Positions 35,428-64,000 of a stretch of DNA of 64,000 nucleotides are shown here, piece by piece. The notes beneath the pieces are model-generated. The model was not told the origin of the DNA and made no database searches. It saw nothing but the letters and a program-made list of their open reading frames with translations. Position 1 is the stretch's first letter. Each line of letters begins with the position of its first letter. The stretch comes from Litoditis marina. Taxonomy: Eukaryota; Nematoda; Chromadorea; Rhabditida; Rhabditidae. Location of the stretch: NCBI GenBank assembly GCA_964036275.1, contig OZ038433.1, positions 3,222,013-3,286,012 of the forward strand, in the 5' to 3' direction. The position numbers and the translations under genes were made by a program.

Positions 35428-38400
35428 TCATACTTGGCTGAGCGTCTTCATGCGCTTGAAGATATTGCTATCATTGGCTTCGATGAATGAAGAAATATAC
35501 GAGTTATCCAGCAGGCAAGACAGAATATCGATGGCACTCACCTGTAAGAAAAAAGGAACTCCAACAAAATAGAAATATATTAGACAAAACTAATAAAACT
35601 AAAAAGCGCTGAAGAAAAAAAAACATCTATGAAAACGAAAAAAGTAACTATCAAATAAGGATTTGAGGCATTTCAGTCACAGATGAGCTCGAAAACAGTA
35701 GATCAGTAGAGCATTTTCTGTGATTTTCATACAATACGAGAAACTTCTGATTGTGTCCAAAATTTCCCAAGTTTTACCAACCTTGCCATTTTCCACCCCA
35801 TCGTATGCAAATACTTCATTCTCGCCATCTTGGAAATCGCGATGATCGTTCGCAAAACCAGAACGCGGTGACTGGAAATGTTTCCATATATTCAATGTTA
35901 TTTGTCAGAGAACACTATGACGGCGAAAACTAGGTCTCACTTCATATACGCAATTGGATAAAGCTACTGCGCACGTTCAAAAATGCCAAAACTGAATTTT
36001 TCATGTTCTAAGATTCAATAAAACTAAAACTAACTGGCTTATTCGATGGTAACTCTATGGTAGGGTACCGTAGTTGATTGGTCGGGTTGACCGAGACCGA
36101 TTTCAGCATACACTTCACGCTCCATTCCACGTTGAACGTGGGCCGATCATAGGGAAGAACCTCCAGGAGAAGGTGTCTGAAAAGAATCCGCCTGTCCGTT
36201 CATATGAATCCGTTCATGGAACAACAATGAAACGTAAACAATTAAGAACGAAAAACATTATAAGCAAATGGTTCGATTTTTCCGAAGCTTGTCAAAACGG
36301 TATATTGAATTTTTTTTTTGAAAAAAAAAGAGAGATTGTTAATTTTGAATAAATAAAATTGTTATTATTATGTAAACAAAACAATTATCATATGTGGGCC
36401 TAACCAGTGGTGCTTGTAGTTTGATCCAGTTGTTTTTTCCGTTTAAAGAAGGACGATTATGTGGACCAATCCCGTTACATCGGTCCTTTAAACTGCAATT
36501 GAAAAATATATTGCGGTTTAAAGGACTGAAGCGTTGCGATTGGACCACATAATCGTCCTTCTTTAAGCTTGTGAACTATGGCGCGTCTAGTTCAAAAAAA
36601 AAGCTCAGCTATGAATATCCGCTTGAAGAAGGACGATTATGTGGACCAATCCCAACGCTTCAGTCCTTTAAACCGCAATACATTTTTCAATTGCAGTGAC
36701 ACGGGATTGGTCCACATAATCGTCGTCATTTTTCAATTGCAGTTCAAAGGGGCCCTGAAGCGTTGGGATTGGACCACATAGTCGTCCTTCTTTAAGCGGA
36801 TATCGTATGAGTATGAGAGAGAGTGTAACTGACGCGCCGTGCTCCAGCTGGACGCCGGTCCGCTTGCAACAGTCGACTGCCAGGGTACCGTCCTCCAGAA
36901 GGAAGGCGCGGCCCTCTGTGCCCGCCCTCTTGCTCCTCGAGCTCATCCTCCCAATGTAGGTCGCCCATCTGACAAAACGCATCTGACAAAATTCATACTC
37001 CAGTGAAGTTGCCCGAACAGCCAGAAAAATTCAATAAACGGACTCCCTTTTCGCCAATCTCGGAGGAATTGGCCTAGTTTTGATGCAAAATCATAATTTT
37101 TCACGAATATTTCACGAGAGAACGGGCTCCCTTTTGTAGGACAGTCACACCTTACTGACAACAACACTGTCTTTATCTGGCATCTTGCTCAAATTCAGCT
37201 ATTTCATTTTTCTGTTTCTCTTCTATGTATCTCATGCTATATATTATATATACATGCTAGCATGTAGAATCAATCAACGATACTGAGTAGAGAACAGAAA
37301 CGAACAGAAACACTCTAGTCAAACATAGCACAGTAAGGTGTGACGTATGAGCCTTGATTAGAGATGTCAAACATGATTGAGCACCGAAAGTTTGAACGCG
37401 TTTGGCAGAAAGAATGCCCATTTTTCTGTCCATTCAGTCCATATTACTGGTTTGTCAGTTGGCACTCTAATTCCTATTGGCAGCCGATAGTGATACAATA
37501 GAAAATCATCAAATTTCAATCAAATCAACCATGAAAAGGCATGATGTCCAGAAACAAACCTTGCTTACGTCCACTAACACGACCTTGGGCACGTCAAGTA
37601 CACTAGAGACAACCCAGTCGGTATCGTAGATCGTCCCTTTATACTTCCGCAGATGTAGTAGGAGCATACTATAAAAATGAGTGTAGCATAACGTTTAAAA
37701 CTACACATTTTCACCAGTATAACATTACATGTTTTCGGGTAGATCCACATATCACATGGGAAAAACAGCTTGTAGTAAATACTTCATTTGAATTAACAAG
37801 AAGACCGGGGAACTGTCCATGAAACGATGAAACCACCTAGTCGAACCCAGTTCTGCATTAAAATAGGCACACGTTCCGTCGTATTTTATTCCCGTTTTCT
37901 GCTCTGGTTATTCAGACAAGAGCACTGGAGTATGGTGTATCTAGCCATTTCACTGAAAAACCGGGTCCTTCCCGAACCGAACCGTATACAAGGTAAAATG
38001 AGTTGGGGTCCACTCAGTTTACATTGTGTACGACTTGTTTGTTCAAATCATGATTAATGTCGGTCCGGTTCAAACCTTCCACGAAGAACGTGTGACCGGT
38101 TCTCGGGTCAATTCGCCTCTGGGGTTGGAAAACAAACCGTAGACATACTTGGAACTCTGGAACCCGCGTTCGTTCTTCAGAAGCAATGTATGAAGTTGAT
38201 ATAACATATCAGGCTTTTGAACACGGTACCTGTCCCGCAGCAGTGGTCCCACCCCGGTTGTGCGGTCGCAGTCAATTGCCAGTTCCGCACTGCCGTCCAT
38301 CAAAGAGAACCATCTGATACAGATACCAATATCGGCCGTCGTTCTCTCGCTATCCTCTTCGTGGTACAAACAATACGCCCACTTCTGAAACAGGTCTCTT

Positions 38401-39011
38401 TTGCTAGGACTCCAATTAGATCTCAGTGAAATAGATACTTGGAAAATTTCAAATAATGATTCTAGACGATTTTAGGTTTAATTGGCGGTTCAGTTGACCC
38501 CTTCAAGAAAACGTCAACTTTCCCATGAGAAGAATACTATCCAACTATTCATAGACTATAACGCCACTTCAGCAGAAGGGACGGCTTCGAAATAAGCACT
38601 CCGTCGAATGCACAGCTCTAGTTATGTTGATCAACACGGAAGTCATCGCGAATATATGAATCACCAAATACCATATAACACGCACGTGCATTACCCTTTC
38701 AGAACTTCACGAAACATTATATTCTGAGGACCATTTCCCTTAGTTCCATGATATAGTTACCTTCAATGATTTCACGTGGAAAGATTGTCTAGTAAACTCA
38801 CCTCATCCCTCATGTCTGCCATTTGGGTACGACATTTCTCTCTTAGGGCAGCCAGCTTCTCCGGGGGTAGGTCAGCCGGTCTTCTGGGCCGGAAATATCC
38901 CGGCACTTCGGGCAGGTTGTCAAGGAAAGACGGGTGCCGGCCGGATTCACCAACCAACTCACTACCAGTCACAGCGCTGGCTGAACACGATTCCATAGTA
39001 GGTGAACTTAG
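35428..39011 (-). CDS. Gene A: unrecognised modular protein, smallest member of tandem family
   Basis: Seven coding exons: 38996-38802, 38384-38230, 37668-37560, 36982-36834, 36176-36035, 35871-35782, 35541-35428, giving 317 residues with consistent phases. An acceptor (TTTTCAG) 15 bases before the ATG ends at 39012. The N-terminal exon begins MESCSASAVTGSEL. Then come two modules, each from a pair of exons joined at phase 2: one with RWFSLMDGSAELAIDCDRTT and LLHLRKYKGTIYDTDWVV, one with FLLEDGTLAVDCCKRTG and YDRPTFNVEWSVKC. An acidic exon (DFQDGENEVFAYDG) precedes the family's 37-residue C-terminal exon (VSAIDILSCLLDNSYIS). The architecture matches gene B modules 2 and 3. No catalytic motif, signal peptide or membrane segment is seen. 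Function unknown; the short beta-rich modules suggest binding domains, which is an inference. Confidence 0.75.
36442..36566. mobile_element. MITE, GGACGATTATGTGG family
   Basis: Begins TTTAAAGAAGGACGATTATG and ends with its inverse CATAATCGTCCTTCTTTAA, with the TCCTTTAAACTGCAATTG palindrome inside. The outer TTAA is present on both sides, so the target site may be TTAA or TTA. It lies in a gene A intron, 50 bases from the next copy. Confidence 0.8.
36615..36803. mobile_element. MITE, GGACGATTATGTGG family, compound copy
   Basis: Outer ends ATATCCGCTTGAAGAAGG and CCTTCTTTAAGCGGATAT are inverted copies, longer than in the other members. The interior has three arms (an extra ATTGGTCCACATAATCGTC followed by a second half-palindrome), as if two copies had recombined. 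Gene A intron. Confidence 0.75.
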
Positions 39012-39909
39012 CTGAAAACACTACCCAAATTAGTTAGCTACATACACTGTCACGTTTGGTGCGAGTTGTTTGAGGGTGTTTTCTCAAAGTTACTAGAATA
39101 ATCTATTTCTTTTCAATGCAATCAGATCCCTAGAAGGCAACATATTCACTTCGAAACTGGATAAACCCGTTTTGCAAAATTAACAAAGCTGCAAAGATAT
39201 AAAAGTGGTTAAACACAGAAGGTTTCTTTTGATGCAATAAGGTATACAAGCGACAATCGCTATTTTTCGATTAAAAATCATCAGAACAAGATTTTTTTAT
39301 TGAACAAATAAAATATTTAACAATTCACACGTACACTACTGCATTGAACTGAGAACAACAAGTAGCAGCTTTGAAGGAAGAATCTCCCCACGTGTCCAAG
39401 CTATTCATGCCTACTAAACTAATCGATAATGATAAAACTACAGTAGAACGAGAGGTAGAAAATAGACCAGACCACACACGTAGAATGAGAGTTCACACCT
39501 CAGGTGATTAAAACCGGTAGACATGTCTTTATACTGCTACTGCAGAATCTTCAGCAGCCAGGTTCACGGTAGATCGCGTAAGAAAAAGTATGATCCTATC
39601 GGAAATGGATGGAAATGCTAGAATATCTACAACCAGCCCAATTTCCTTGCAACCTAGCCGTGTCATGAAGATACTGCTCAAAGACTTGAACTTACTGCAG
39701 GATACAGCCAGCTTGCCAATAGGTAACCGGGGCTGGTTATTACACTAACGGCGGAACAAAGCGACACCTCGATACATAGAGGGGAAGGAAAGGACTAATG
39801 ACGATTGGAGAACAACACCGACTAAGGAAACATGAAAGACTAGGTGACTCGTCTGACTATTTCAGCCATAAACAAACAGCCACAAGCAATGCTTCTATAT
39901 CAGAGGAAG
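38997..39909. other. Intergenic region between genes B and A
   Basis: About 0.9 kb of AT-rich sequence. A TTTATT at about 39296-39301 reads as AATAAA on the minus strand, some 610 bases after the gene B stop, and may be its polyadenylation signal. The TTTTCAG acceptor used in front of the gene A start ends at 39012. No exon is seen otherwise. Confidence 0.5.
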
Positions 39910-42900
39910 TCAGAGCCGGCCGAGAGACTTCATCATCCTGAAAATCCTGTTGTCGTGAGCCGCGATGACGGCTGCGATCGCCTCGTTCTGAAGCAACGAC
40001 GACACCACTTCTTCGGCGCTCATCTGCAACTATGAATATGGTCAACAATGCATTTGCCTTCGGATCTACGCTCTTATGATGGTCATTTCATCAAGTTAAT
40101 TCACTAGGAACCTGTCAGTTACATGGCTTACATTGAACTCCCCATGCTCGGTTGGGCAATGAGTACATTATATTCACTTACTTATTTACATTCAAAGAAT
40201 GGGGCACTCGCTCATGACACAAAACTATCTCAAAGAGCAATGACGCTTCCTAGTCTCCTTTCTACGAAGATAGAGGGTAGCTTCTCACCTGTAGTGGGTC
40301 GGTTTCATTGATGCCGCTGGCCAGATTTGACCATAATTCGCCCGAGAGACTAGTAGTCGGCGAATAAGTATTCAGTCCGGCGACTTCACCCGATACCTGA
40401 ACATGAGTACATCAACTCACAAGTCGAAACAACTGTGGACATCTCAAAACACAAATGAACAGACCATGCACATGAAATATTGATTCAATCCCAGCCTTCG
40501 TTTCCCAACGGGAGCCTTGGCAGTTTTTGCTGAATGATTCACAAGTATATTACCCTGGCACCTGTAGTTCACCACTGAAAACCTTCTCTGTAGATACGGT
40601 ACAATGCTCATGAATGGTTCATATTTTCAACACATTCCCTATCAGAATCTATTTAAAACAAAATACAATATGTGAGAATTGCGACACACCTTACAGGAAT
40701 CTCGTGCAGTGTTGAGTTGGGCGGGCTCTTCGGGGTACCACATCTGCATCTCACTGTCATCCTCCCTGTTTGCGGATAGACTAGGAAGCTCCTTAAAACA
40801 ACGGAAAATCAATAACGAGTGAGCCTGATACCCTGCGATACGAACAACAGCCCAGTGGTGAAGTCAGACGATAGGCAAGGGTAAAATGGTCACATCTCCC
40901 ATGAACACCGCTTTCCACCCTGGACCCCCACTAACACCAGATTATATTTCGAGTGAATCTGAATTATCATGATTTCAAGATGCACGCATCATATTGCTGC
41001 AATATGCTATTCCTCCATGGCCACCCAGGTGAGTGGGTGACGATTAAGCTCAAACACATTAAGCTAAAACCTATAGCTCAAATTAAAACACCAACAAAGA
41101 GTTCAACGTGTCACAATGTATAGTTTTTATGGTTAACCTATGTTTGGTAAATTTTTGTGAAAAACTTCTTTCATACAGTTTTTAATAGGATACATCCGCT
41201 CAATGTGTTCAAGCTTAATCGTCACCCACTCCCCAGTACCCCTGTCTCTGCAAGACCGAAGGGTCACCCGATACACATACAGAGCAAACGATACTCAAAA
41301 CAAAGCGTTTTCCAAGGCCCCAATTCAGAAGTAGATTATCAGGTATTCTACATGTCTTACTGTTGCTATATTCTTGGAACAAACAATCAACAAAATGATG
41401 AGCCGACCAACCTCTCTACTTCTGAGCCCATCTTCCTCCTCGTCAGAGTAGACTCCGCCATCGTCCTCATCCAGATTCCCATAGTCCGCCGCACATGATG
41501 CCCGACGCCCTTCTGCCTCAAAACAAAACTATTCACATAAGAACTACGTCAAATACCATGAGACGTGACTAGATGAGAAGTTTTCGAATTATCAGTTCCA
41601 CATACTCAGGTTCTGGGGAAAATTGAAAGCATAAAGTAAATATTTACCAACTGCAGTGAGGGGGGGATCCACCTTCCAACTTTTGTATTGCGGATGATAC
41701 ATTGAATTGGGTATATATCAAAATAGACGTGTTCTGTAACAAATTTTGGTGGCAGCAAACCTACTGAAAATATACAAGTACCCTACCTGTATGTCGACAT
41801 GCCGAGCATTGTTCGCAAAAGGAGTTCTTCTCTCTCTTCCTTCGAAAGAGTGAAGTCGGCTGGGAGTAGCAGCCTTTGACACAGTCGCGTTATACTGAAA
41901 ATAAGGAAACATCAGTGAGACCAACCCAAAAAGAGAAAAGGATGAAGCGACTTAAGTTTTGGGTTTTGGTGATAACTCATTGAAATTCAATCCAATTTAG
42001 CTTCCTGAAGAAGGACGATTATGTGGTCCAATCCCAACGCTTCAGTCCTTTAAACTGCAATACACTTCAATTGCAGTTTAGAGGACCGATGCGTCAGGAT
42101 TCGTTCACATGATCGTCGTACTTCAAGGGTCCGGCTAAAAAGTAAATGTCCAGGTTGAGATGAAATACCGACCGGTTTCTTCACCGGCACGTGGTTTGCC
42201 GGCGGCGGCGGCGAGGCAGTCTGCGGCTCGCTCGCTTTCCTCGATCTCACACCGTCTGTCGCCAGTCCTTTCACCGTCCATTTAGCGTTGAAATTGGGTC
42301 CGGTGTAGGCCACGAGTACCAGGGAGACCGATCTAGAAAGAAAAACCATCGTCATCACTGACCACCAGATTCCGCAAACATCGGTCATTAAAACTCCAGG
42401 ATAAAACAAGGATGCTCTGTTTACATGTGTGAAAATGTGAAAAGCCGACTCTGACCAGTAAAAAAAGCGTTCAAGTCCAACTTCTCCACATCATTAGAGG
42501 ATTGATACACCCGTACTGGAGACAGTTTGCCTAATAGCAGCGAGAAATTAACACCAGTGAATTTGTTTTAAAAAAAATTGGAGTCCTTTTCGTCGAATAG
42601 TCGAATCTTACTGGCGTGTGGTGAAAAATGAGAGTAAGTTGGGATAAACTCACGTATTTTTCTGCAGAAATACTCCCGTCTTCTTGCTGCAGTCTACGGC
42701 GAATGAGCCATCTTCGAGCCGAAACTGTCGCACAAGGCCGACACCCCTCACCATTCCCGGGCCGCTTCTCGACAAATCTCCCACGTAGGTGGCCGTGGCA
42801 ACAATCTGTAAATACAAATAGAATTAAAACCACTACAAACGCAATACAATACGAATACCTATAAATCAAACTAGTAAATCGTATCATATATATATCTAGC

Positions 42901-45900
42901 ATCATATCAGACTACAGTCGGAAATTACCATATTTTCACCCTCTAAATAACAAGATGCCTAGGTAACGGGAAGCATTTGTATTTCTTAAAAACACAAAAA
43001 CGGATTTTTTTCTGTGAAAAGCCGCAAGTCTTTGAATCAAAAAATTTTTTTTTTTCTGGAATGGTCACCCTTTACCTGTTCACGCGGTGTCCTATTCGGT
43101 CTGCCATGCCGCACCACCCAGTCGGCATGATGTACATTTCCCTCGTATCTGCGCAAATCCAACAAATGACGCCTGAATACAACACTCAGTTAACGGGACA
43201 GAGGCGTACCTTTCTTTATTTCAATATACATTGTAACCATATTAAATTAGAGCCTTCATTCTTATTATAATCACAATGAACACTATCCGTAGTGTGACAC
43301 TTGAGAGGACATTTCAATCAACAACTGTTTTCTGTACCTGTAAACACGTAACTATTATTCAGATGTTCTCTACAAACAGAACAAATAGATAAAACCTATC
43401 CGCGTAACATGACATAATTTCCTATCCTCGACGAATGCTCATCGGGGAATACTTGCCAACAACTCACGTTCCCTCTCGCAGCGGTTTCAGACCGGTCACT
43501 TTGGCGCAGTCGAGTGCGAGCTCCTGCTCGGCCCCCTCCAGGCGAAACCATCTGTGGCAATTCTTATGCGCCGTCCTTTGTTCCGAGATGTATATACACA
43601 CAGCCACTTTCTAAAACAACGAAAATGGCTATATACAACGACAACCTCATTGAAAATGGTTTGCTTCGAGTATAGCGTACTGATAATGCGTTATTTTGAG
43701 TATGGATTCGCTTTTAATCATAAATATTACTTTTATTCAAAGCTCTGAATCGAAGTTGTTTTCCTTCATCGAAAAGTCGAAGGCTCTGACAGAACCTTGA
43801 GATGTTTTTTTTTACTTTTCACTATCACTCTGAACTCAGTCTCCCACAGTACGCTCCGCTAAGTACTAAGTAAGTACAACTGTATCACAAAAGTCCAGCA
43901 AAATACACATAACTACACAAACCATATGGCCATACAGGAACTTCGCCTACCGTTTCTTCTTTGCGTTCGGACGTCGAGCCTAGGGGAGCGTGTTGGGCCG
44001 CGGACTGGGTGCAGACTGTCGACGGCTGGGCTGCGACTGGTTGCAGAGCCACGGGAGCGACATTCGCGGTGGGCTGGTGAGGGTAAGGCCGCGCTGCCTC
44101 GTGGACAGGAGCAGTAGTGGTGGCTGGCTTTGTCTGCAATAGCAAGAGTACAATGGAGATCGAGCCCGTATGCATCATCATAGATGCAATATCCCTGTTC
44201 CACACACCGCCAAGGCCTTCCATAAAGGGGGGAGTCGCGAACAAATTCTTGTGAAAAGTAGGGGTCGCGAACTGTCAACTAACGATTTTCATACAAAATC
44301 AGCTATAATCGTGCGGAAATTAGTTGAATATCGCCGTTTTGGGGGGTCGCGACACGAGAAAACACGGAGGGGTCGCGAGAATTTTTGAAGGATTAAGAGG
44401 CCCTTGGCGGTGTATGCTGTTAGCTCATTGGGGTGGGGACATATTATGACTATTCCATGATTTCTGGACTAAAGTAACTGGAAAAATATCAGAGCAAAGA
44501 TCTATAACTTCCGCTTTTTCCACGGAACGATGTTCAATTCTTCTAACCCCTCAAACCGACAATATCCCACCGATGGTATGAATACACAGACACAGCTAAA
44601 TACCCAACAATAACAAAAGAACGGCACACCTGGCGGACAAGTGATGTGTCCTCGGCATCGTCCCTCGCACGGGAGACTTCTTCGGTCGACCGTGCCACCG
44701 GTCCAGCTGGGTCACGACTGTAGCCGATGCAACCCGGCTGCAAACATGTTTTCTCGAAACAAATCAACTGAAAAACGTCTGTCTGAATCTCAAATAACTT
44801 GCAATTTGCGGGACAATACTACAAACATCACATTCATAGTTATGACTGATTCCTATACATACGCCACCCAGTTAAGTATATAACTGTTCTCCGAAATAGA
44901 ACCAGTTTTGCGTTGAAAAAAAATCTAAATTGTCAGAACAGAAGTAGGTAACCTTTCCGTTTTTTCCTGGTCATACATTGAGCAAGTCAGCCAGAGTTTG
45001 TTGGCGATGCTAATCTGAGTAAAAGCACAAATTCCCACCTTTCCATGCAATCCGTTCCGAAACGAGCCAGTAGCTGCGATGTCTTCGAGGGGTGAAGATG
45101 GTACAGGCTGCAACCAAACAAATTGGTTATCAAAAAACGTGTGAAAAACGGTTCAATTATAAAAGCAGGAAAGCACCGAAAGACAATGGTTAAGGATCCA
45201 ATTGAATACAGGATAACGCATCGAAATGAAATGTTCCCAAAAGTAGTCCCGTTTTTTCATTATATATTCGTGAAAATTTATGATTTTGCAACGAAAATGG
45301 GAAGATTGTTTATTCTTCCTATTTCAGCCAAATGGAAGCATGTTTCTGACTATGCGGAATACTCTACTGGAGTAGGGATGTTCCAACTCACCGGAGCTGG
45401 ATCGGCGTTGACTATTCCCAGTTCCTGGAGAGGAATTCTTCTAGTTGCCTCGGTCGAGCCAGAAGGGGGGAAGGGCCCTCTTCTGATCACGCCACACACT
45501 GCCCACTGTACATTGTAGGACCGGTTGCAGTACTCGCGCAATTCCAGGTCGAACGAACTGAAAAACAACAACAGTGTATTAACATTCTGACTAAATAGTC
45601 AACATAACCATTTGAGAGAACACAAACGTCACAAACTAACTCGTTTGGGCGCAGATTCCTGCCGGTGACCATATTTCCGTCCAGGGCCCATTCCCCATTT
45701 TCCAGCTGGAAGAACCTCGTGATGACACGACGGCGTTTCGTATCCTTCGCACTTGAGTGACGGAATACACAGCGAGCAACTTTCTGAAAATGATCTACTC
45801 ATCAACTACAAACAAGAGAGTTCAATGCAGTTATGCAGTCGCCTATCGGGACAACCGAATACCAGTTTTCACCTGAACACCTTCAACCTGAAGAAACTAC

Positions 45901-46309
45901 CGTTAGATTACTTCGAACTGACAGTCAAACTCAATTTAGTTCGCCACTACGAAATAGTTTCTACTTGTCCATGACCGAGTACAAACACGACTAAGTAGTC
46001 ATGTCATACACCATTTAGTTCTTGGATTTGAAATGCATTGAAAGTGGCCTTGAAATTAGTGAATGTCGAGCTCCTTTTTCTTGGAATTTTTGAGCATTCG
46101 GACCCATAGGGTGGTATGAAAGTAAAGCTGACCGTGGTCTTGTCGGAGGAAAGTCGTCGAAACTTGGCTTCACCGAGAGCAACATTCCGGACCAGACTGC
46201 GACCGTGCTCGTCACTCCTTCGCTGGAACAGATGGTCCCCAGTCGCGTATGCCCTCGAGCGAGGCCTGGAAGGGGGGTTGTTGGTCGATCTGACATCGTA
46301 ATCAGACAT
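39910..46309 (-). CDS. Gene B: unrecognised modular protein of tandem family
   Basis: Fifteen exons: 46309-46010, 45783-45641, 45557-45392, 45107-45039, 44737-44630, 44133-43951, 43610-43468, 43172-43076, 42805-42654, 42332-42173, 41894-41787, 41516-41412, 40791-40690, 40396-40289, 40023-39910. Phases agree and give 685 residues. ATG (MSDYDVRST) lies directly after a TTTCAG acceptor. Three modules are each split by a phase-2 intron: KVARCVFRHSS..RFFQLENGEWALDG..VTG with SYNVQWAVCGV; KVAVCIYISEQ..WFRLEGAEQELALDC with YEGNVHHADWVV; and ATYVGDL..FRLEDGSFAVDCSKKTG with NFNAKWTVKG. Linker exons rich in Ser, Thr, Pro and Ala separate modules 1 and 2. The tail has an acidic exon (DYGNLDEDDGGVYSDEEED) and the family's C-terminal exon (MSAEEVVSSLLQNEAIAAVI). 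Function unknown. Module exons are all near 143-166 bases, which implies internal duplication. Confidence 0.78.
42003..42127. mobile_element. MITE, GGACGATTATGTGG family
   Basis: Left arm GAAGAAGGACGATTATGTGG is intact; the right arm (TCACATGATCGTCGTACTTC) is partly degraded. The inner palindrome TCCTTTAAACTGCAAT is present. It lies in a gene B intron between exons 42332-42173 and 41894-41787. Confidence 0.75.
44201..44416. mobile_element. 215-bp MITE, CACCGCC family, copy 2
   Basis: Begins CACACACCGCCAAGGCCT and ends CCCTTGGCGGTGTATG, with the same interior as the copy at 10257-10471, including AACGATTTTCATACA and GGGGGGTCGCGACACG. It lies in the gene B intron between exons 44737-44630 and 44133-43951. 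High similarity between copies suggests recent activity. Confidence 0.75.
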
Positions 46310-51600: not shown

Positions 51601-54600
51601 GATTGCACCGCCTTATATGCAACACATGACTGAAAACGTAAACAACTAGCTAAAACAGTGTGAAAATTTATGATTTTTATTTTCGTCTCAGAGGCTGTCA
51701 ATATTGTGAATGTGAATATGGTACAATGAGCCGAGCCCTGACATAATAGTATAATCTAACAGCTCACCTGGACTCCCTTTTTGTTGGCTTTCGTGGGTCG
51801 CCAAGTGCCAGATTTTTCAACAGAATTCACCAGCATTCGCAGATTTCCATTGACACGGACAGCTTGGAAATAAATCCAACTCCCAAGCATATCACGCTTC
51901 GGCCATCTGGGAAAACGGTAATAGTTTGCCAACAATTTCAAAGAATAAAGATTAACCAACGAAAATCCACTCACTCTCTATATCTGGATCTGGACTGCAG
52001 TCAAGAGCATTACAAAACAAATTAAACTGATCTAATAAATATTGAATCTTCTAAAAATTCAATCACATTGCCGAAACTTATTTTTGGAACACGCATGAGA
52101 CAACCTTTTCAGCATGAAAAGACGGGTGCAACCAACAAACCTGACGGATTTGTCTGCGATAATCTCATGTTTTTCTTGTATGCACCATATAAAATGCGAT
52201 CCACTGTTTGAGATATGCGTCACTATCCCGAAGCACGGAAGAACTTCTTCACCTCGACCTTCCTCGGGCAAAACGACTGGCAACTTCTGTGAACAGAACA
52301 GAGAGAATGTTGCATGAAGACCAAGTATTCAAGTACGGGGAGTACTACCACAAATACACAATAAAACTTACTTTTTCGTCAAAAAATACATTGTCGGACG
52401 TGAAAAAGAAAAATCTGACAAGGAGGAGGGGAAGAGTGACACATTATTCCCATTCTTTTGTACACCGCCAATGAACAATTTACCAGCTGGTACTTTATCG
52501 CCATCGAGTATCGATAGCTGCACTTGGCCTCAATGCAGTGATGACCAAAGTTGGTACGCGAACAACTTTTTGGAGGGGGGGGGGGGGGTCGTTTTCGGCC
52601 AAACATTAGAAAAAAATAATAGAGATTTGGGACGATTTCGATAAATTCAAACTTCGAATTGGAATAATTCTGGTTCAGAAAGCTTGTTTTTGACTATTTG
52701 AAAAAATTGATTTTGAAAGGGGCGGGGGTCGTTCCGGCCCAGGCCGGTCAAAGTTTTGGTGATCCCTGGCTTCAAATGGCTACAGCTTTAATCAAATACT
52801 CACCGGAATGCTTTCATTGACAGAAGTGGGCTTTCTCCTGTAAGATATCTCGACCAAGTGTATGACCTTCCAACGAGAAGATTCTCCTGGACGCGAATGG
52901 CGCTGCAACCAGACAACGAACTCGCTGCAATGGATGTATAGTTCAATTGATCTGCTCATTAAGAGATGGACTCAGAACCGTTTTGATTTCGACCCTGATT
53001 CAAGACGATTTTGAGTTATTTAGAGGGTTGAGTCATCATCAGTTGAACTCTTCTGAGAAAACGACGACAAAACCAACAGTAATAATGAATCTAGTTCGGT
53101 CGAGGTCGAATTATGTATATGTATCATAACTACATCCAAAAAGACCATAACATATTATCAAAGAATACGTAGGTAATTGGCACGAACAGCACACAAATGT
53201 ATCATTACAACAGGACCACACTTATCATGGTGTCTGCAAACTGTTTAGCGAACATTCAGTACACTACAACAGTTTTGCGCTGCGGCGGTTGTCAATATAT
53301 ATATATACTTCCACTATATCTAGCCATGCTTGAAGAACAAATTGAAAGCTGCTTGTCAGCAATAGGCCTCCTACATGTGTGAGTTTAGTGGGTCACTGAG
53401 TGTTTGGAATCAAACCAAGAACCAAATGTTTTCCCACCATTTTTAGCAGCGAGAAGCAAGTCTCTAAACTCTAATAATACTTGTACTCACTCTCCGAAAT
53501 AGGTGTCGGCCGGAATTTTCTTCAACGCATCGACAATACGTCCAGTTTCCTTGCTTTCGAGTATAAAATGGCCGTCTTGTGTACGATTTCCGCGGTACAA
53601 ACACGTAGTCCTCACCTAAACAATATAAAAACAATACAAAACTTTGTGTACAGAATAGCTACAGTGTAATGTGTAATTCTTTAGCGTATATCATCAAAAG
53701 TAGGCACATATTGAAATAGGCAAACAAACTGGTTTCCACAGGCAAATTCTTAATTAAGGTGAAACTAAAAACATGAAAGCGTGCACTTGCCGAACCGAAG
53801 ACAACGCACAGCGCATTAAAAATGGCTAGAAAGAAATAGTTGAATGCTTTTCAGGAAAGCACCGTATTTCTCGCGGATCATCTGCCTCAAAGAAATACTA
53901 ACCTGCGGTACGCGATTGACCAACTGTGTGGGTAGTCGATTAGATACAATTTCAACGGAATTTTCCAGAATTCGAAGATCTCCGTTACGATGAACGGCTT
54001 TGAAGGAGATCCATTTTCCGATCAGGTCACCCGCCGGCCTCAAACATTGTGAAATAGAAAATCTAACCCTACCCCATCAAATACGTGACCTGCGAAACTA
54101 GTGAGGGAAATGAAAGGGTCTCTATAATAATAATCTTTTACGGCAACTATTTCAGCCATGTGATACTTTATTCAACTAACAACCAAGACAATTATCACTG
54201 ATGAATCCGCAGAGGGGTGGGGTCCGTAGAAGAGAAACTAGGCATGGGTGAGCTTTATTACCAGGTCATGCGGTCCGCCATGAAGATACCGCGCCGAGTG
54301 GGATCGAACCATGGTGTTTTGAGTGCTAGCGCGCACACAACCAGTCGACCACTCGGCCTCTACTCCGAGTTGCATACGAGTTTTCCATGTTGTTTTCGCG
54401 AACCGATTTCGCGGTTCGGGAATGGCTTGGTTGGTGGAATGAGATTCTAATCGCGCGTTTTCGTACTTGAAAATCTGTTTCCGGGGTCACGTAAGTGTAC
54501 TGGTACCCGATTACTGGGGAAAAAATAATGAAAAAACCAACATGCTAAACTTGTCTCCAATTACGTCTGTTTCCACATTAGGACACCAAACGAAGGCCAT

Positions 54601-57478
54601 TCCCCTCTCCAGCACGTGTCCCACGACTCCGTACCCCGAAAAAACGTCTTGAGGTTCCTCAAACTGATCTGGACCTCGTCTACTGCTAGTAAAGCCGTCG
54701 AAAATCGGTTCCTGAAACAAGATATAACAGAAATGCTTCGCTTTCTGTCGTACACGTAATCTGATCGTTCATTGATCTCCCTCGAGATTATGAGAGCGGC
54801 TTGGACAAAGGATAAGATGAAAACAAAAAAAAACCCACGTTTGGAGCTATAGGGCGAGGCGAGAAGTTCGATGCTTCCAATGGAGCAGGTACATGTTCTC
54901 TGGCGTCTATTCTCTGATTTTCACTCTGAAACAATACAAAATGTGTTTGATTGACATGGTATAGCACTAATAACTCCGAATCAATCAATCAATGCAGTGA
55001 AAAACTACGTTCGGTTGAAACGAACCGAACCGTTGATTGGATTCATCGAGATCCATTTCGTTTGTGGTGTTATCGGTTCGAGGAACACTTACATAATTGT
55101 CGACGGAGATGACTTTCTTCACAATGAAGATCGACTGATCGCGGTCGCGGGGACTGCTGATGGTGCTGAGGAGGACCCCAACAGTCTCCCCCGACTGCAT
55201 GAAGTGCCTCGGTACACGGGCATTCACGTCAATAATGAGCCCTGCGCAAAGAAAATCAATAATTGGAGCTGTAATCATTCTAGTTACACATTGAAAAGAT
55301 TACTGGTGTGAAAAAAAACGTGGCGAGTTTCGTCTCTACCACGAATCCCGAACTAATCATACCAAAATCGAATCAAAACCCATGTCGAATTTTCTTCGTT
55401 CTGATATGCATAATCATAACGCGAAAGAAAAACAATAGTCTAAAAATAATGAATAAAACTTAACAATACAGAAAACTCACCTAAATCTTTATTTTCGAGC
55501 AACATCACACCATCTCCATTAAACTTGAGAGGAACGGCAGTAGTTTCAAACTAAAAGAAGTAAACTATGAATTTTCTTTATCAAAGCTCTAGTATAGCAG
55601 AACTAGACCAAACTTCCACTCCATCTGTTGCTAGCAACAACATTTATTTTTCTAGAAACAATCGGGGGCCCGAAGTGAAGGGAAAGGAGCAGACTTTCGT
55701 AAAAAAAAGCTATACCACATTGCGTTCATCACTACGGGGTGATCCGCAATAACCTCGAGCAGGCCAATTCTACAACTAACCGGGTTTTTAGGTAACCTAA
55801 CCCTTTTTTGGTAACCTTTTTTCAGGTTACCTTGTTAGGTAACCTGTAAGTAACCTGAAACTATAATCCGGTTACCGTCCAAACTAACGGTAAAAACCAC
55901 ATTTTGCGTTAGAAAAACAGGTAACCTGTTTTTCATTTTAGGTTACCAACCGGTTACCTACTGAGGTAACCTGAAAAATAGGTTACCAAAAAAGGGTTAG
56001 GTTACCTAAAAACCTGGTTAGATATAGAATTCACCCCTCGAGCATACGTCGAACCGCATGTGGTGCAAACTACGAAAACAACCAATCAAACATAATAACA
56101 AACTTTCTGTGTTTTTCGAGATACTTGCGCTGCTCTATAGCGTTCTATAACTGGCATTATTGGTGTACCTCCGCCCTTACTGAAAAGTTTCATCAAACTG
56201 CTCACCATGACTGCGTTGCGAACGGGGTCCACGTACGAATGTGGCCAGTCCTCCTGAGGAAGAAGGCGCAAGTCAGTCACCATGTGCTTGGCCTTGTTAT
56301 GTGCTTGAGCACGCGGATTTCGTCTGCGAAACAAACGAAATATAAAAGTGTACAATCGTGAGTTATTGTCCACCTTATTATTGTGCCTTAATACTGATGT
56401 ATTCAGAGTAGGAAGAGAATAATAATAATAATAATAATCTTTTACGGCAACTATTTCAGCCGTGTGTTACTTTATACATACAAATACAACCAAGACAGTG
56501 ATCACAATGTAGTATCCGTAGAGGGGTGGGGTCCGTAGATGAGAAACTAGGCATGGGTGAGCGTTATTACCAGCTCATGCGGTCCGCCATGAAGATACCG
56601 CGCCGAGTGGGATCGAACCATGGCGTTTTGAGTGCTACCGCGCACACAACCAGTCGACCACTCGAGAAAAAGGAAAGAGGGGTTTATCACACTCGCAACC
56701 AATGTCTGTTTAGCATGAACTATAGAACTGTAAAGCACCTGACGTCGAGCAGATCTAACGTTATCACACAAATACCGAATTCAGTACTGCGCTATACCTT
56801 TGAGAAGAAGTTAGCAAGAACAGCTCAAGCAACAAATGTTTCCAAAAGTTCCAATTAACAATATATTTATATAACGAAATAACTTCGAAAACTACCTTAC
56901 TCTTACTTCCACGAAATGGCCCACAGCTATACCGTCTTTCCAGGAAAGTGGAACGATGGCTGAAATACCAAGTCGGAGTGGAACTACGAACATGGCTGTT
57001 GCGCATGAGCTGTTCACCACCGCCGGTAGCCAGCCCGACTCTTCGAAGCTCTGAAACATGAAACAAATAATGAAACAACTTAGAGGAGAGCAGAATTGAA
57101 AACTAGTTTGGGTACCCCGGGGTACATAAACATAACGTTGGGCTCGCCAAAAGAGACCAAAACATGTGAATTTTATGCAAATTAGGTGTGTTAGCTTGAG
57201 CAAATAAAGAATAAACTAGTTTCTGTTGAGCAGCTCTTTCATATTAGGTTTCATTTCTGCCTCTCTTTAATAGATGTATACTTGTAGAGAAATAATACTG
57301 AAACGGAGTTAACCACATCTTATCCTCATTTCAGATTACCAGAGAACTATTATATTAAAAAAAACATTATATAGCTTAACTTTTAATGGATAAAAGCCTT
57401 AAAACAAATAATAAAACTTAAACTTACGCAGGGATGGTATTGCACTACAGGATCCATCCGATCCGAAGATGGCACCAC
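48660..57478 (-). CDS. Gene C: largest complete member of tandem modular family
   Basis: Eighteen coding exons: 57457-57428, 57050-56896, 56323-56125, 55550-55481, 55241-55093, 54925-54839, 54711-54542, 54038-53903, 53615-53491, 52924-52804, 52286-52141, 51906-51768, 51497-51373, 51161-51044, 50718-50587, 49849-49754, 49449-49336, 48773-48660. Phases agree and give 741 residues. The start MDPVVQYHPC follows an acceptor (TTTGTAG) at 57478 by 21 bases. Modules alternate between two types: one with YGVVGHVLERGMAFVWCP then LIGKWISFKAVHRNGDLRIL, and one with CLYRGNRTQDGHFILE then FVVWLQRHSRPGESSRWKVI. The pair is repeated as FGIVTHISNSGSHFIWC..LGSWIYFQAVRVNGNLRML and CVYRGVITRDQHLVLE..FEVVVMRC..SGWKIVRLE. 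The tail has an acidic exon (DYGNLMVDDGGVYSDEEEED) and the C-terminal exon MSALDMITVLLENPTIAETI. Fold and function unknown. The repeating G-x-V, W-x-x-F pattern would suit small beta barrels, an inference only. Confidence 0.78.
48809..49003. mobile_element. Small foldback element, 195 bp
   Basis: The 17-base ends CTGAGACTCCTACAGTA (48809-48825) and TACTGTAGGAGTCTCAG (48987-49003) are exact inverted copies. The interior is AT-rich and non-coding. It lies in the last intron of gene C, beside the terminal exon. Confidence 0.65.
50440..50545. repeat. Long C and G homopolymer tracts
   Basis: A run of C (about 50449-50462) and, about 45 bases on, a run of G (about 50507-50520) with further G-rich sequence (GAGGAGGGAGGGGGG) flank GGAATCGCATTTGGAGGGGG. 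The two tracts are complementary and could pair or form G-quadruplexes. They lie in a gene C intron. Similar G runs are at about 15866-15880 and 52576-52587. Confidence 0.7.
54124..54362 (-). mobile_element. tRNA-derived SINE, copy 1
   Basis: Read on the minus strand it starts with a tRNA-like head: GGCCGAGTGGTCGACTGG (box A-like) and GGTTCGATCCCA (box B of a pol III promoter). A unique body (CATGGCGGACCGCATGACC, CGGACCCCACCCCTCTGCGG) follows, then a tail GTTGCCGTAAAAGATTATTATTAT. It matches the copy at 56419-56664. Not a working tRNA: no proper anticodon arm or acceptor pairing. In an intron of gene C, same orientation. Confidence 0.75.
55777..56020. mobile_element. Palindromic MITE, GGTTACC-rich
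   Basis: Ends TAACCGGGTTTTTAGGTAACC and GGTTACCTAAAAACCTGGTTA are near-perfect inverted copies extending about 40 bases each. The interior is a series of GGTAACC/GGTTACC motifs. Related in style to 2114-2334. It lies in a gene C intron between exons 56323-56125 and 55550-55481. Confidence 0.75.
56419..56664 (-). mobile_element. tRNA-derived SINE, copy 2
   Basis: Same head, body and tail as the copy at 54124-54362 with a few base changes, and a longer (ATT)n tail of about eight repeats, which is the usual signature of a retroposed 3' end. In another intron of gene C, same orientation as the gene. Confidence 0.75.
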
Positions 57479-58795: not shown

Positions 58796-61700
58796 CTATT
58801 CCTCGAAAACTAGATTGTTTATCCTGACAAATGCAGCCACGTCCTCCTGCTCGATTGTAGCGGCGATGGCAGGATTGTCCAGAAGAACGCACATCATATC
58901 CAACAGGGACATCTGAAACGTTTTCTGTTGTGACGTGAAAAGAATAACAGGAAACAAGGATGGTTGTCACATAAAACAATTAGTCGAACAACAGACTACA
59001 GAGCGCAGAAAGTGTTTTACTGGCGAAATTCGATAGATATAGTCTTTTTCATTCCAACTAAGAGCACTACAGTAAGATTTTGGAGCGTTCAGACTGTTTT
59101 CGCACTCAATTATGATCGCATGTACAAAGAGTTTTTCAGAATATTCTCGACTAATTGAAATTAGATTAGAATTGGAGAATTGGGGTAGAATAGAGAAGTC
59201 AATCGAAACATCTAATGTATACTGTCTCAGTAGAAATCACGTGGACTATGACAAAGTGTGCAGCTGTTGGTCCTAGAAAAATAGCAATGTCTGCCACCCA
59301 TCGAGACACCCCAAAAAGTTGTAGAAACCTCAGACATTCTGAGATACTATTGAAACCACGTGAAGAGCTCAGTAAACTCAATCCAGCTGACTTTTTTGAG
59401 CGGCCCTCCCTCCATGAGACCCATTTTTTTACAATGGGGTCCCATCTACATCTTACCTACTTTGTCGAAAAACGATGTATTCGGTCGGAATCCCAATTTT
59501 TGAGTCCCAGCGATGTTTCAAATCTGTGTAAATTTGAAGTCATCACCTTCTCATACTCCTCCAATCGTTTTGCGGGTGAAGATGTGGTGATTCGACCGGT
59601 GTCACCTATACTCCTTCTATGACTGTCACATGCAGAGAGAGCCGCCATCTCGCTAGCCATTGAAGACATCGTTTCGCTGTGCAACGAAGACGGCGAACGC
59701 GCCTGCAAAACAATACAAATACATAGATATATGTGAAACCTTCTCGAAAGACCTATTAAATATGAAACAATATTGTTGTTGTCTAAAAATAAACCAGAGT
59801 TTAGAAAAAAATACACTGGAACTTTTCTGTCAAAAATAGGAAATTTGGACAATTTTCTTTCATCTGTGTGTAAGCACTAATTAGTTACATTCGAATTCTG
59901 AGCTCTCCCAAACATATCTTGCGAATTCAAAAAAAGTTTCAAGTATAAGTGCTGATCTATTGCGCTGCTTAGTGGTTTTCATATATACGAAATCTAACAC
60001 GAACTCAAGAAAAATACCCAGTTGAGCTCAAGAAAGAACTACTTTGAATCATTTGTTAGGCACACATGGAAGGAACTTCCGAAGAAAATATTTTGAAACT
60101 TCCCCAGTTGAGCAGCCCGAAAAATACCCAGTTGAGCTCAAGAAAGAACTACTTTGAATCATTTGTTGGGCACACATGGAAGGAACTTCCGAAGAAAATA
60201 TTTTGAAACTTCCCCAGTTGAGCAGCCCGAAAAATACCCAGTTGAGCTCAAGAAAGAACTACTTTGAATCATTTGTTGGGCACACATGGAAGGAACTTCC
60301 GAAGAAAATATTTTGAAACTTCCCCAGTTGAGCAGCCCGAAAAATACCCAGTTGAGCTCAAGAAAGAACTACTTTGAATCATTTGTTGGGCACACATGGA
60401 AGGAACTTCCGAAGAAAATTTTTCGAAACTACCCCTTTACAACGATTTATTCAGGAGAAGAGTGCAATTATGAATACTGATCACACCTTGCTGGCCCGAT
60501 GATTCGCAGATAAAATATCCCACCTGTTTTCCACTGAGCCTCCTCTCCCTCGAACCCAATACTAGCCCCGGACGCTCTATTCCATTCGCGGATGAGCGAC
60601 CAGATACCACTTGGTCCAAAACATCATCCGGGTAGTTACTCTGAATACATTTGCAATTGCAATTATTAGAGAACAAACAACTCAGATAATTAATAAAACA
60701 TAGTTTCAGTAAGGGCCATACACACTTATTCGTTAGTTTAGTTCGTTCTTTAAGAATAAACGAACTGTGCCACTCCCACTAACAGAATAAATAGAGCGCA
60801 ATTACACTGCGTCCCGTTGAAAACGCAGTTAACACTGTACATGATCTACAGTAGCACGTAGCACCTTGACCTACGGTTACTGACCGCCATCGGGATACTT
60901 CCGCGTAACTGCTTCAACTCGGGCGGTGTCGTCTCCATTTTCGAGATTTTCCAGCGATGCGAATGCGTGTCACTGCTATGCCGCACCATCCATACCGTGA
61001 AAGTGCTGTAATACATCATATTTTCCCATCGCATCAAAAATGATTGAGTGGTAGAATGCTCGCCTTCCAAGCCAAAGAACCAACTTGTACAAGTACAACA
61101 CAGATACTCAAGATGCAAACGATGGGGATTTTTGCCATTTTGATCTTGTCACAAACTTTATACGAAACTTTAGTTTTTTTCTCTCTATTTTCCGTTCAAG
61201 GCACATGAGCGCAGACCAAAATTTAACAATCAAACGTACTGTCGAAGTGGAGTGTTGAGGGGCAGATATCCGTGTAGATCAATAACTTCACCGACAATTA
61301 CATTCCAAAGATTGGCGTGTCCGCACTTGTCCGTGCCGAGATAAACACATTCTCCCCTGATCTGGGATAACAGAATAATAAGTTAGTTTCAGATCAGAAA
61401 ACGAACCACAATCCACAAAACCGAACCAGCAAACTTTTCTAGACGGGTGTCAATATCACACCCATCTAGAAAAAGTTTAGAAAAAAAGGCTCTTTTGGTT
61501 TTGTGGATTTTGGTTTGTTTTCTGACCTGAACTTTTCATAGACGGGTGTCAAATCTAGTCATTCGAAAAAGCGCTATCCATAACATACACAGTCTCTTAG
61601 GGACTGATCAAACGAAATTCACCGTTAAGACTGAGAACGTGAGTGAAACAATCACCGACGCCAGATACCATTTCCAAGAACGAACTGCAATCATAGTGTA

Positions 61701-64000
61701 GCCGCTTAAACTGCGACAAAGGTACTCACTTCTGGAATTCCATTCAACGTTCGGGTTGGTAGAACATCGTCAATCACTCGAATGGGAGCACAAACGTGCG
61801 CACGACGGGCCCCTCGGCTGAACTCTGCCTTGAACTCCACCCATTTGCCCAGTTCAGCTTCCAGCCTGAACACTTTGTTCACATACTACAGTAGTTATCC
61901 AAATAGTAAAAAAAATCTCAAACGAGCAAATTTTCCTTTCCGTTTCGCGAGATTAAATGGAAAAACGGGTTCCCATAATCCCATAAAGGAGCCATACTTT
62001 ACTAGTGTATGACTTTTCATTCAATCCGTGTGAAACTTGTGGTAGAAAGCAAATAAAACAATCTCATCTCATTCTCATATCTTCTGTAAATAAGATGCCG
62101 TAAAAAAAACTAAATTATTTCCAAAAATACATAAATTTAACAACAGTTATTTTTCTATCTGTCACCCGGCACAGCTATAATGAGGCAACTCACACAAACG
62201 GCTTCCTCAGCTCGACATCTATGTCATAACTTCGGCTCCAAATAAATCCATTCATATCGGGCACTAAGTATCCGACAAAACCAACGGAAGGGAGTGACAT
62301 GAGCGGTAAAACAGTACTTTCCACTTTTGGAACAGTACTTTCCACTTTGCTCGAAACCCAAAACAAGTATATTTTCTCAAACAAAGAAATCGAGCGTAGA
62401 CCACTTTCAACTATTCAATAAAATTCTCATTCAAAAGGTCGATTGAAAGAATGTTTCATCTAGCAACAGTATCGACCAACAGGCAACAATTCTACAGAGG
62501 TCCGAAAAATATATTAGGAAATATTGATAAAGAGTGAATGATTCAACCCACTGACCGTGTCAACATTCGTACAGGCCGGCTTCATTGTCACGTCTAATAC
62601 ATTCGTGACTGTGAAAATGGACTTTGTTGCATCTAACGGGCTGGTGGCGACTTTGAACTCAACCAATGCTGTTTCCATTCCTACCGCCTTAGAAAGTGGT
62701 ATATGGCCATGCAGATCGACAATTATACCTAAACAAACATAAAGTCTGTAATCCAATATGACCTTTGCTGAACATAGAATAGAATAGAATAGAATAGTTT
62801 ATTGAAATCGTAAGTGAGTTCAAAAGTGTGAATACAAAATGAATGCAAAATGATTCGAAAGTCCCGTGCGAAATGGTTGTTGCAAAAGAATGCGAAACAC
62901 TAGGAAACGAAAGAAACGAAACATAGGGAATCGCACTTGTGAAAGAACGTTGAGAGATGGTTGGTTAGTTATGACCATCTCGCAACGTTCTTTCACAAGT
63001 AACGTGAATGAATAAATATGTAAATATGGTTAGTAGAATTCGTGCAAATTTGGATCACGCTCGGTTTCACGTTTGTCCCAACTTGTTAAAGAAATCGATA
63101 AAAAATATCTACATAATACTCACCAAATTGTGCATTTTCGAGAAGGACTATCTTCCTTTCATCATAGGGAACAGTGTTTTGAAACTTAGCTCTCGCTTGA
63201 ATCTGAAACAAGCCACAGTTTATTGATTAGCGTTTTTCAGTTTTCCTTCCAACTCTATTTTATGAGAGTAGAGAAAATATTCACTGTTCACACCAGCCGT
63301 CTACGAATCGAAAACATCGTGAAGTTCCAGTTAAGCTCGTCGCATTTTGCTTCCCAAGCAACTAAAACATTTTGAAAAACAGGAAACACTAAACATTTCG
63401 AAAAACAGGAAACACTAAACATTTCGTAAAACACTGGAACATTTCGTAGAACAGACAATCTTATAATTTAACAGATGTGCGAAAAGATACACTTTTTCGA
63501 ACCGCGCATTCAACAGCCACAATACGCTTCTATCCATAGCCAAGAATTCAATTTGTGGTTAACGTTCTTTTTCCGAACACTTTTCGAACCGCTTATTCAA
63601 CAGCCACAATACGCTTCTATCCATAGCCAAGAATTCAATTTGTGGTTAACGTTCTTTTTCCGACATCAGACGGGACTCCATACGCCTAGAAACAAATTTC
63701 CCCATACTCTTAGAGTAGACCGTTTTTCAATTGAAATAGAATGAAAATTAGTAAAAACCATTTGGGGACGTACCAGCAACGCCTGCCTCGCCCCGCTGCC
63801 CTCGATTCGCATGGGCGGCCATTCGGAGATGCGACATCCGCGCGCGTCCACCACCTCGTGTCGGAGGTGCGGCGTCTCAGGAGTTGGATCCAACTTTAAC
63901 CTGAACAGGAAGGTTACACGGGAGAATATTTTTTGGGGGGCGTCACCTATCCCAGCTGAGTTCAATACCCAGCTCGTACAATAATTTTGATTGGGCTGGT
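58796..64000 (-). CDS. Gene D: tandem-family member, 5' end outside the window
   Basis: Eleven exons in the window: 64000(partial)-63947, 63900-63774, 63202-63124, 62728-62556, 62375-62194, 61865-61730, 61361-61240, 61005-60885, 60640-60524, 59702-59547, 58912-58796, giving 460 residues with consistent phases. Modules parallel those of gene C: IVLLENAQFG + IIVDLHGHIPLSKAVG; VGFVGYLVPDMNGFIWS + LGKWVEFKAEFSRG; CVYLGTDKCGHANLW.. GEVIDLHGYLPL + FTVWMVRHSSDTHSHRWKI. Ser-rich linkers follow, then the C-terminal exon MSLLDMMCVLLDNPAIAATI (38 residues). The exon 62375-62194 start uses a GAG-type acceptor and contains an in-frame seven-residue duplication (KVESTVP/KVESTVL). The exon at 60640 could instead end at 60524 or slightly further. 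Function unknown. Confidence 0.75.
60005..60425. repeat. Tandem repeat, 110 bp x about 3.8
   Basis: AAAATACCCAGTTGAGCTCA starts at 60011, 60121, 60231 and 60341. The copies are almost identical, so the array is young. The period is not a multiple of three, and the open frame through it is not a gene. It is in a gene D intron just downstream of exon 60640-60524. Confidence 0.9.
61388..61531. mobile_element. MITE-like inverted repeat, 144 bp
   Basis: Arms of 35 bases (left AGATCAGAAAACGAACC.., right ..GGTTTGTTTTCTGACCT) match in inverted order with about four mismatches. A second palindrome (CTAGACGGGTGT / ACACCCATCTAG) lies between them. In a gene D intron. Confidence 0.65.
62771..62800. repeat. 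GAATA microsatellite
   Basis: About five repeats of AGAAT/GAATA in a gene D intron, followed by AGTTTATTGAAATCG. Short and unremarkable. Confidence 0.7.
62934..63001. repeat. 27-bp stem hairpin in a gene D intron
   Basis: ACTTGTGAAAGAACGTTGAG.. pairs with ..CGCAACGTTCTTTCACAAGT over 27 base pairs with a single mismatch and a loop of about 12 bases. The size would suit a small-RNA precursor on either strand, or it may be the remains of a foldback element. No further evidence for an RNA gene. Confidence 0.6.
63496..63669. repeat. 87-bp direct duplication
   Basis: TTCGAACCG..ATTCAACAGCCACAATACGC..TTCTTTTTCCGA is present twice in tandem, offset 87 bases. 87 is a multiple of three, so an open frame persists (IQQPQYASIHSQEFN twice), but this is in a gene D intron and on the opposite strand, with no start or splice support. 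Confidence 0.8.

Follow-up and report, generated by a model that had tools for sequence, protein, structure and literature searches.

The array of paralogous genes

We analysed a 64,000-nucleotide window of the Litoditis marina genome (C4:3222013-3286012, on a 55.65-Mb contig of the 261.8-Mb assembly), in which four genes, designated D, C, B and A, lie head to tail on the minus strand with their ends at 35428, 39910, 48660 and 58796, respectively. They belong to a real, locally duplicated gene family that is uncharacterised and larger than first described. A preceding reading of the letters alone (the sequence-only reading) had noted four head-to-tail paralogues, each ending in an exon of 37-38 codons that has the form (M/V)S-x-x-(D/E)-x-x-x-x-L-L-x-N. 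This exon was seen in all four genes, but the lengths given for A and D had been swapped (117 bases in A; 114 in B, C and D). All four paralogues are present in the window; the array, however, comprises at least six genes, and A runs past the window end, with the first exon of its N-terminal module and its likely initial exon lying outside (Table 1).

The additional members, E and F, are situated upstream of A beyond the window. They were found with profiles of two module types described below, X and Y, and of the terminal exon (hereafter the tail), built from the window and run on both strands of 182 kb. Gene E was identified by its tail (expectation value, E-value, 7e-7) and a Y0 module (6e-5), and gene F by a second X exon (1.5e-6) and a Y0 module (8e-4). 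These four matches are independent of profile building, and all matches at an E-value below 1e-3 in the 182 kb were confined to the array, with nothing at that level beyond E and F up to 118 kb past the window. When five protein queries were run against the whole genome, 30 matches were returned, of which 11 were to paralogues and the remainder were self matches; all fall within one locus (C4:3258818-3297235). The best 3 to 8 candidates were scored per query, and distant copies could escape. Copies elsewhere of the third module type, W, were sought by protein query of the genome alone. The gene duplication proposed from the sequence is thus supported by six paralogues in one array and by the confinement of all genome matches to one locus.

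Most exons were placed by fixed splice and codon scores together with manual reading of frames. A self-trained gene finder was dropped, having merged all exons into a single 292-exon minus-strand chain. The models of A (11 exons, 464 residues) and D (7 exons, 293 residues) are open from ATG to stop. The 17-exon model of B is open with any of three ends of its first X1 exon (682, 684 or 685 residues); in-frame GT donors follow 54551 or 54542, giving 682 or 685 residues, and the end at 54545 has no GT. The model of gene C falls into two open parts, one of 213 and one of 349 residues; the join 44953-44133 between them was not resolved, and this gap contains a dispersed repeat.

Modules, tail and divergence

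Three module types, W, X and Y, precede the linkers and the tail; most modules consist of one exon pair with outer borders in phase 0 and an inner intron in phase 2. Modules of 80-95 residues, each encoded by two exons that are mostly split at phase 2, had been described before; this mostly holds, the Y0 modules of A and B being split at phase 1. W is an N-terminal type revealed by upstream exons in A, B, E and F, and an exon earlier assigned to A (63294-63361) was discarded once it was found. Genes A and F have the architecture W-Y0-X-Y1, B has W-Y0-X1-Y1-X2-Y2, E has W-Y0, D has Y-Y and C at least Y-Y-Y, in each case followed by linkers and the tail. The first Y0 exon is missing from the models of both E and F, and that of F also leaves out some linkers, a certain second exon for Y1 and the acceptor of its second X exon. 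As proposed, module number varies among members, with four in A (its W module, which straddles the window end, included), six in B, two in D and at least three in C. Candidate initial exons of A, B, E and F code for 7-11 residues containing Y-(D/H)-P, and were picked by resemblance to this motif among 2 to 5 candidates per gene. Inspection by eye showed no hydrophobic leader encoded in any of the six initial exons, four of which are these candidates, and the proteins are therefore probably intracellular.

An all-against-all comparison of reading frames recovered the terminal exon common to the genes, along with many exons of the modules. Pairwise module similarities identified A and B as one pair (AX versus BX1, 28% identity, E-value 1e-7; AY1 versus BY1, 34%, 2e-10) and C and D as another (CY2 versus DY1, 44%, 5e-18; CY3 versus DY2, 43%, 7e-14). 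Within B, the similarity of X1 to X2 (39%, 5e-18) and of Y1 to Y2 (40%, 9e-16) indicates tandem duplication of a four-exon X-Y block. Exon-pair duplication, as suggested earlier, is consequently visible in B, but with a unit of two exon pairs and not one. The A/B and C/D groups are linked by the tail (B-C, E-value 4e-4; B-D, 9e-6; A-D, 2e-4) and further by the acidic exon that B and C have in common (5e-7) and by their exon phases; these link the groups more strongly than the Y modules do. By hhalign, no relationship was detected between X and Y (probability 0.1-0.3%) or between W and Y (at most 0.8%).

The acidic motif of B and C, DYGNL..DDGGVYSDEEE, shows 80% identity across 20 aligned residues, which exceeds every module exon pair compared, and it may serve as a linear motif for binding. 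An acidic linker exon had been ascribed to A, B and C; the motif is shared by the latter two, and no homologous exon was found in A.

The similarity of paralogous exons is not due to chance: z scores relative to shuffles range from 2.4 to 22.9, and 49 of 62 pairs reach at least 5. The 13 pairs below this comprised five of the tail, three of second W exons, two of first X exons and one each of second X, second Y1 and C/D Y exons. Identity at codon positions 1, 2 and 3 was 0.50, 0.63 and 0.34 over 1967 codon pairs from the 62 exon pairs, which were aligned by amino acid, a procedure that alone lifts identity at positions 1 and 2. The pattern is as expected for coding exons, and the divergence is of coding type. 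We considered whether the exon chains might be artefacts or decaying copies and not working genes, as the outstanding join in C, the dispersed repeat in the same gap and several weak or uncertain splice sites (the first A X acceptor, the first B X1 donor and the last D Y donor) could imply. Chains of 11, 17 and 7 exons nevertheless read open and paralogous exons differ by third-position divergence, making this explanation highly improbable.

Of the segments compared between A and B, the tail is conserved best (61% identity, versus 46% for the first W exon, 33% for the second Y0 exon, 33% for the second X exon and 30% for the first Y1 exon). AlphaFold2 applied to the four window tails gave helices at 3-11 and 14-36, with a mean predicted local distance difference test score of 89.4 and a predicted template modelling score of 0.48. 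The predicted two-helix tail fits the look of a docking motif, though the model is too short to prove function.

Table 1. Exons and modules of genes A to D, in window positions (modules are given as first plus second exon)
Gene	Feature	Span	Exons	Strand	Basis or remark
A	Likely initial exon	65002-65028		-	Beyond window
A	W module, first exon	64549-64703		-	Beyond window
A	W module, second exon	63774-63900		-	In frame and by position; weak W likeness (z 3.2 with B)
A	Y0 module	62556-63202	63124-63202 + 62556-62728	-	Phase-1 split
A	X module	61730-62375	62194-62375 + 61730-61865	-	5' border uncertain, poor acceptor (first exon)
A	Y1 module	60885-61361	61240-61361 + 60885-61005	-	Splice/codon scores, pairwise comparison
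A	Ser-rich linker exon	59547-59702		-	In frame
A	Terminal exon	58796-58912		-	38 codons + stop, 117 bases
B	Likely initial exon	57428-57457		-	10 codons; one of two candidates, by Y-(D/H)-P likeness to A, E and F
B	W module	56206-57050	56896-57050 + 56206-56323	-	Splice/codon scores, exon alignment
B	Y0 module	55093-55550	55481-55550 + 55093-55241	-	Phase-1 split
B	X1 module	53903-54711	54711 to 54551 or 54542 + 53903-54038	-	
B	Y1 module	52804-53615	53491-53615 + 52804-52924	-	Frame comparison, splice/codon scores
B	X2 module	51768-52286	52141-52286 + 51768-51906	-	Frame comparison, splice/codon scores
B	Y2 module	51044-51497	51373-51497 + 51044-51161	-	Frame comparison, splice/codon scores
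B	Acidic linker exon	50587-50718		-	DYGNL..DDGGVYSDEEE common to C (E-value 5e-7)
B	Two linker exons	49336-49849	49754-49849 + 49336-49449	-	In frame
B	Terminal exon	48660-48773		-	37 codons + stop, 114 bases
C	Initial exon	46133-46309		-	Directly after splice-acceptor-like site
C	Y1 module	45392-45783	45641-45783 + 45392-45557	-	Frame reading, pairwise comparison
C	Possible degenerate X first exon	44953-45107		-	By position alone; second exon not resolved
C	Pro/Gln/Ala-rich linker exon	43951-44133		-	Frame reading
C	Y2 module	43076-43610	43468-43610 + 43076-43172	-	Splice/codon scores, pairwise comparison
C	Y3 module	42185-42805	42654-42805 + 42185-42332	-	Splice/codon scores, pairwise comparison
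C	Acidic linker exon	41412-41516		-	Frame comparison with B
C	Linker exon	40289-40396		-	Splice/codon scores
C	Terminal exon	39910-40023		-	37 codons + stop, 114 bases
D	Initial exon	38802-38996		-	65 codons
D	Y1 module	37569-38384	38230-38384 + 37569-37668	-	Splice/codon scores, pairwise comparison
D	Y2 module	36098-36982	36834-36982 + 36098-36176	-	Last donor weak
D	Linker exon	35782-35871		-	Splice/codon scores
D	Terminal exon	35428-35541		-	37 codons + stop, 114 bases

Neighbouring genes and searches for known families

A gene for a phosphorylase kinase regulatory subunit occupies about 9148-33482 of the window on the minus strand. A 110-residue piece of its product matched the beta chain best in the PDB (E-value 4e-26) and the alpha chain at 1.5e-19. 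Among the 120 best proteins listed for a rough 838-residue chain, the best matches were nematode, at 71% identity for a contig protein, 69% for a partial Cooperia protein, 67% for Cylicocyclus, 66% for Ancylostoma duodenale and Caenorhabditis elegans and 57% for Pristionchus. These identities indicate a rhabditid nematode as the source, with none of those 120 proteins coming from a close relative. Exons of a DM-domain (DMRT) gene were found on the plus strand at 6131-6976 (Pfam DM, E-value 7e-13). Inside the phosphorylase kinase gene span, tandem arrays at 17757-19627, 21098-21774 and 24210-24879, with periods of about 48, 70 and 139 bases, have consensus units that share GGCAGGCCTTACA. A 117-base tandem array of 4.6 copies was identified at 22121-22660. 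Repeats also occur among the array genes. A 110-base tandem array (60009-60435, 98% matches) lies within an intron of the A model, and copies of a dispersed repeat at 54196-54355 and 56505-56664 (94% identical) lie in introns of the B model. A second dispersed repeat is present at 10174-10536, in the phosphorylase kinase region, and at 44181-44468, in the gap of gene C.

Pfam searches at an E-value of 10 or less with modules and chains returned nothing reaching the cut-off; the A chain used here and in the protein-word searches contained exon 63294-63361 and was without W. A protein database search with B (without W) scored 7992 candidates, none at an E-value of 10 or less, and among proteins within the permitted length of 212-675 residues there was none with three words in common with the A tail. 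Protein searches of this kind demand shared exact 5-residue words and are estimated to miss relatives below roughly 50-60% identity, and therefore the lack of a protein match means just that there is no close relative in the database. Nematode proteins are covered by this database, since phosphorylase kinase, used as a control query, retrieved 2799 proteins. No relative was found among viral contigs scanned with three X copies (33 pattern matches), and keyword searches of the literature showed no paper on this gene family among the titles listed for the words used.

Profile searches of the PDB gave no credible match for modules or tail. Matches of the Y profile to ankyrin and DARPin entries (best E-value 7e-5) were mainly sums of short pieces and were rejected as reflecting helix or composition, whilst the best match of the X profile was ribosomal protein eS12 (E-value 1.2). 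Tail matches (best E-value 2e-9; mostly DARPin among 60 listed of 112) were rejected on the same grounds; these too were mainly sums of short pieces, the best single stretch being the ankyrin protein 2aja (28 residues, E-value 0.0075). That the family was unrecognised therefore stands with respect to Pfam cut-offs and credible PDB matches, whilst the protein searches reach close relatives alone.

The genes might instead be strongly diverged members of a nematode family annotated in better-studied worms, seeming new through searches by near-identical words. No close relative seems to be covered, given that the neighbouring phosphorylase kinase is at best 71% identical among the 120 best proteins listed; the search with B was possibly filled by low-complexity words; and AX matches the family DUF7039 (PF23049) at 12.9 bits (E-value 0.15). 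That match is, however, far under the cut-off of 27 bits and occurs in one of the four X copies scanned, there was no whole-genome match over the cut-off, and the word search with the A tail likewise runs counter to this reading. We rejected DUF7039 as an assignment for AX (12.6-12.9 bits) and regard the explanation as a whole as plausible, though short of probable.

Alternatively, the modules could be beta barrels of the oligonucleotide/oligosaccharide-binding type that form RNA-binding chains like Unr/CSDE1, with X resembling a cold-shock domain (CSD) and Y and W non-canonical ones (ncCSDs). Two kinds do alternate in B (X-Y-X-Y) and, in our own reading of the alignment, the motifs of X follow the order of a CSD, with G-x-V near the start, F-(I/V)-W, D/E-(I/V) about seven residues on, then G-x-W-x-F and, in two copies, NG. 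In the Y modules of C and D the first loop is long, as the portions of PMC7383231 drawn on here describe for ncCSDs, and approximate estimates of propensity and periodicity lean weakly towards strands in X and W. Using hhalign, C/D Y scored z 4.9 over 25 shuffles against the CSD set, and the Y scores against CSD and ncCSD were each reached by 2 of 100 shuffles. Yet the reversed Y profile nearly equals Y against CSD (11.5 versus 11.7), the X score against CSD was reached by 10 of 100 shuffles, and unrelated sets also gave z 3.4-3.5 (C/D Y versus ubiquitin, W versus Tudor). When X, Y and W were aligned to cold-shock, ncCSD, S1 and six unrelated domain sets, the probability was at most 3.8%, as opposed to 41% for the positive control of CSD versus ncCSD. 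No Pfam CSD match was obtained at an E-value of 10 or less for the modules and chains scanned, and none of the four X copies (NGFIW, SHFIW, AFVW and SFVW) has an FGF or FFH motif. An overlap profile alignment was not used, its control of ncCSD versus CSD giving z -0.8. On balance, we consider it unlikely that the modules are such barrels.

A putative adaptor family and its closest known systems

The most likely mechanism, which we put forward tentatively, is that the array encodes a tandem family of at least six modular adaptors with a common docking tail and varying ligand-binding modules. The common tail would dock all members onto one partner, whilst the varying modules may bind different ligands, protein or RNA, from member to member. 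Conservation of the A/B tail above all other segments compared, together with divergence of the modules, suggests a constant tail partner and changing module ligands. Symmetric exon pairs, in phase 0 on the outside, would permit gain or loss of modules with the frame kept, and one such in-frame gain is visible in B.

Several results weigh against this adaptor model. The exon joins are predicted, and where donors were several the frame-keeping one was taken. The tail of F is weak, with an E-value of 0.85 in one profile scan and no match at 1 or less in another. Between C and D, the tail is 41% identical, below the first Y exons at 50-56%, and the tie between C/D and A/B Y modules is weak (best BLAST E-value 0.005; hhalign 0.4%). 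Foldseek, the check suggested with the sequence-only reading, was run on the tail model and gave no PDB match at an E-value of 10 or less, naming no partner. The adaptor and docking role is itself inferred. Overall, the initial observation is partly confirmed, and its interpretation as an expanding modular family is supported.

A more specific proposal, that W, X and Y are three domain families unmatched in Pfam and the PDB, within an adaptor family restricted to a single nematode lineage, whose members have a helical docking tail in common and gain or lose ligand modules through duplication of symmetric exon pairs as a fast-evolving recognition system, seems to us somewhat unlikely. If the modules are new domains, up to three would be added; if they prove to be divergent nucleic-acid-binding barrels, they would show the origin of such chains outside known families. 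In either case, the locus is a clean example of a single array in which duplication of genes and of exon pairs can both be read, in a family without a recognised domain.

Among known systems, Unr/CSDE1 resembles the array in that two kinds of module, similar in size, alternate along the chain, in the long first loop of one kind and perhaps in a beta-rich character. The array proteins differ in being shorter, with two to six modules and six tandem paralogues, in having no significant sequence or profile relationship to Unr/CSDE1, and in being without CSD motifs. The alternating kinds of Unr/CSDE1 are related; X and Y do alternate in B, with no mutual relationship detected. DUF7039 resembles the array insofar as one of four X copies weakly matches 52-61 of its 105 profile positions, but the scores fall well short of its cut-off and the other X copies are unmatched. 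RSD-6 of C. elegans, also a nematode protein, carries N-terminal domains in tandem whose function is unknown. Compared by description alone, as given in the part of PMC12817956 used here, its domains consist of three helices and two sheets and it has Tudor domains at the end; RSD-2/RSD-6, considered as candidates, were set aside on that description.

Families without relatives are common in nematodes. In the sections of PMC6643871 consulted, about one third of Pristionchus pacificus genes are without detectable relatives, and those sections and the corresponding ones of PMC5633384 describe lineage-restricted families as common. The present find is thus unsurprising in kind and of moderate interest. 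The array has in common with the orphan families of these two sources, as far as those sections characterise them, that no homologue is detected in searches able to reach close relatives and that the lineage is poorly sampled. It is set apart from them by its multi-module architecture, its symmetric exon pairs and a tail common to six members.

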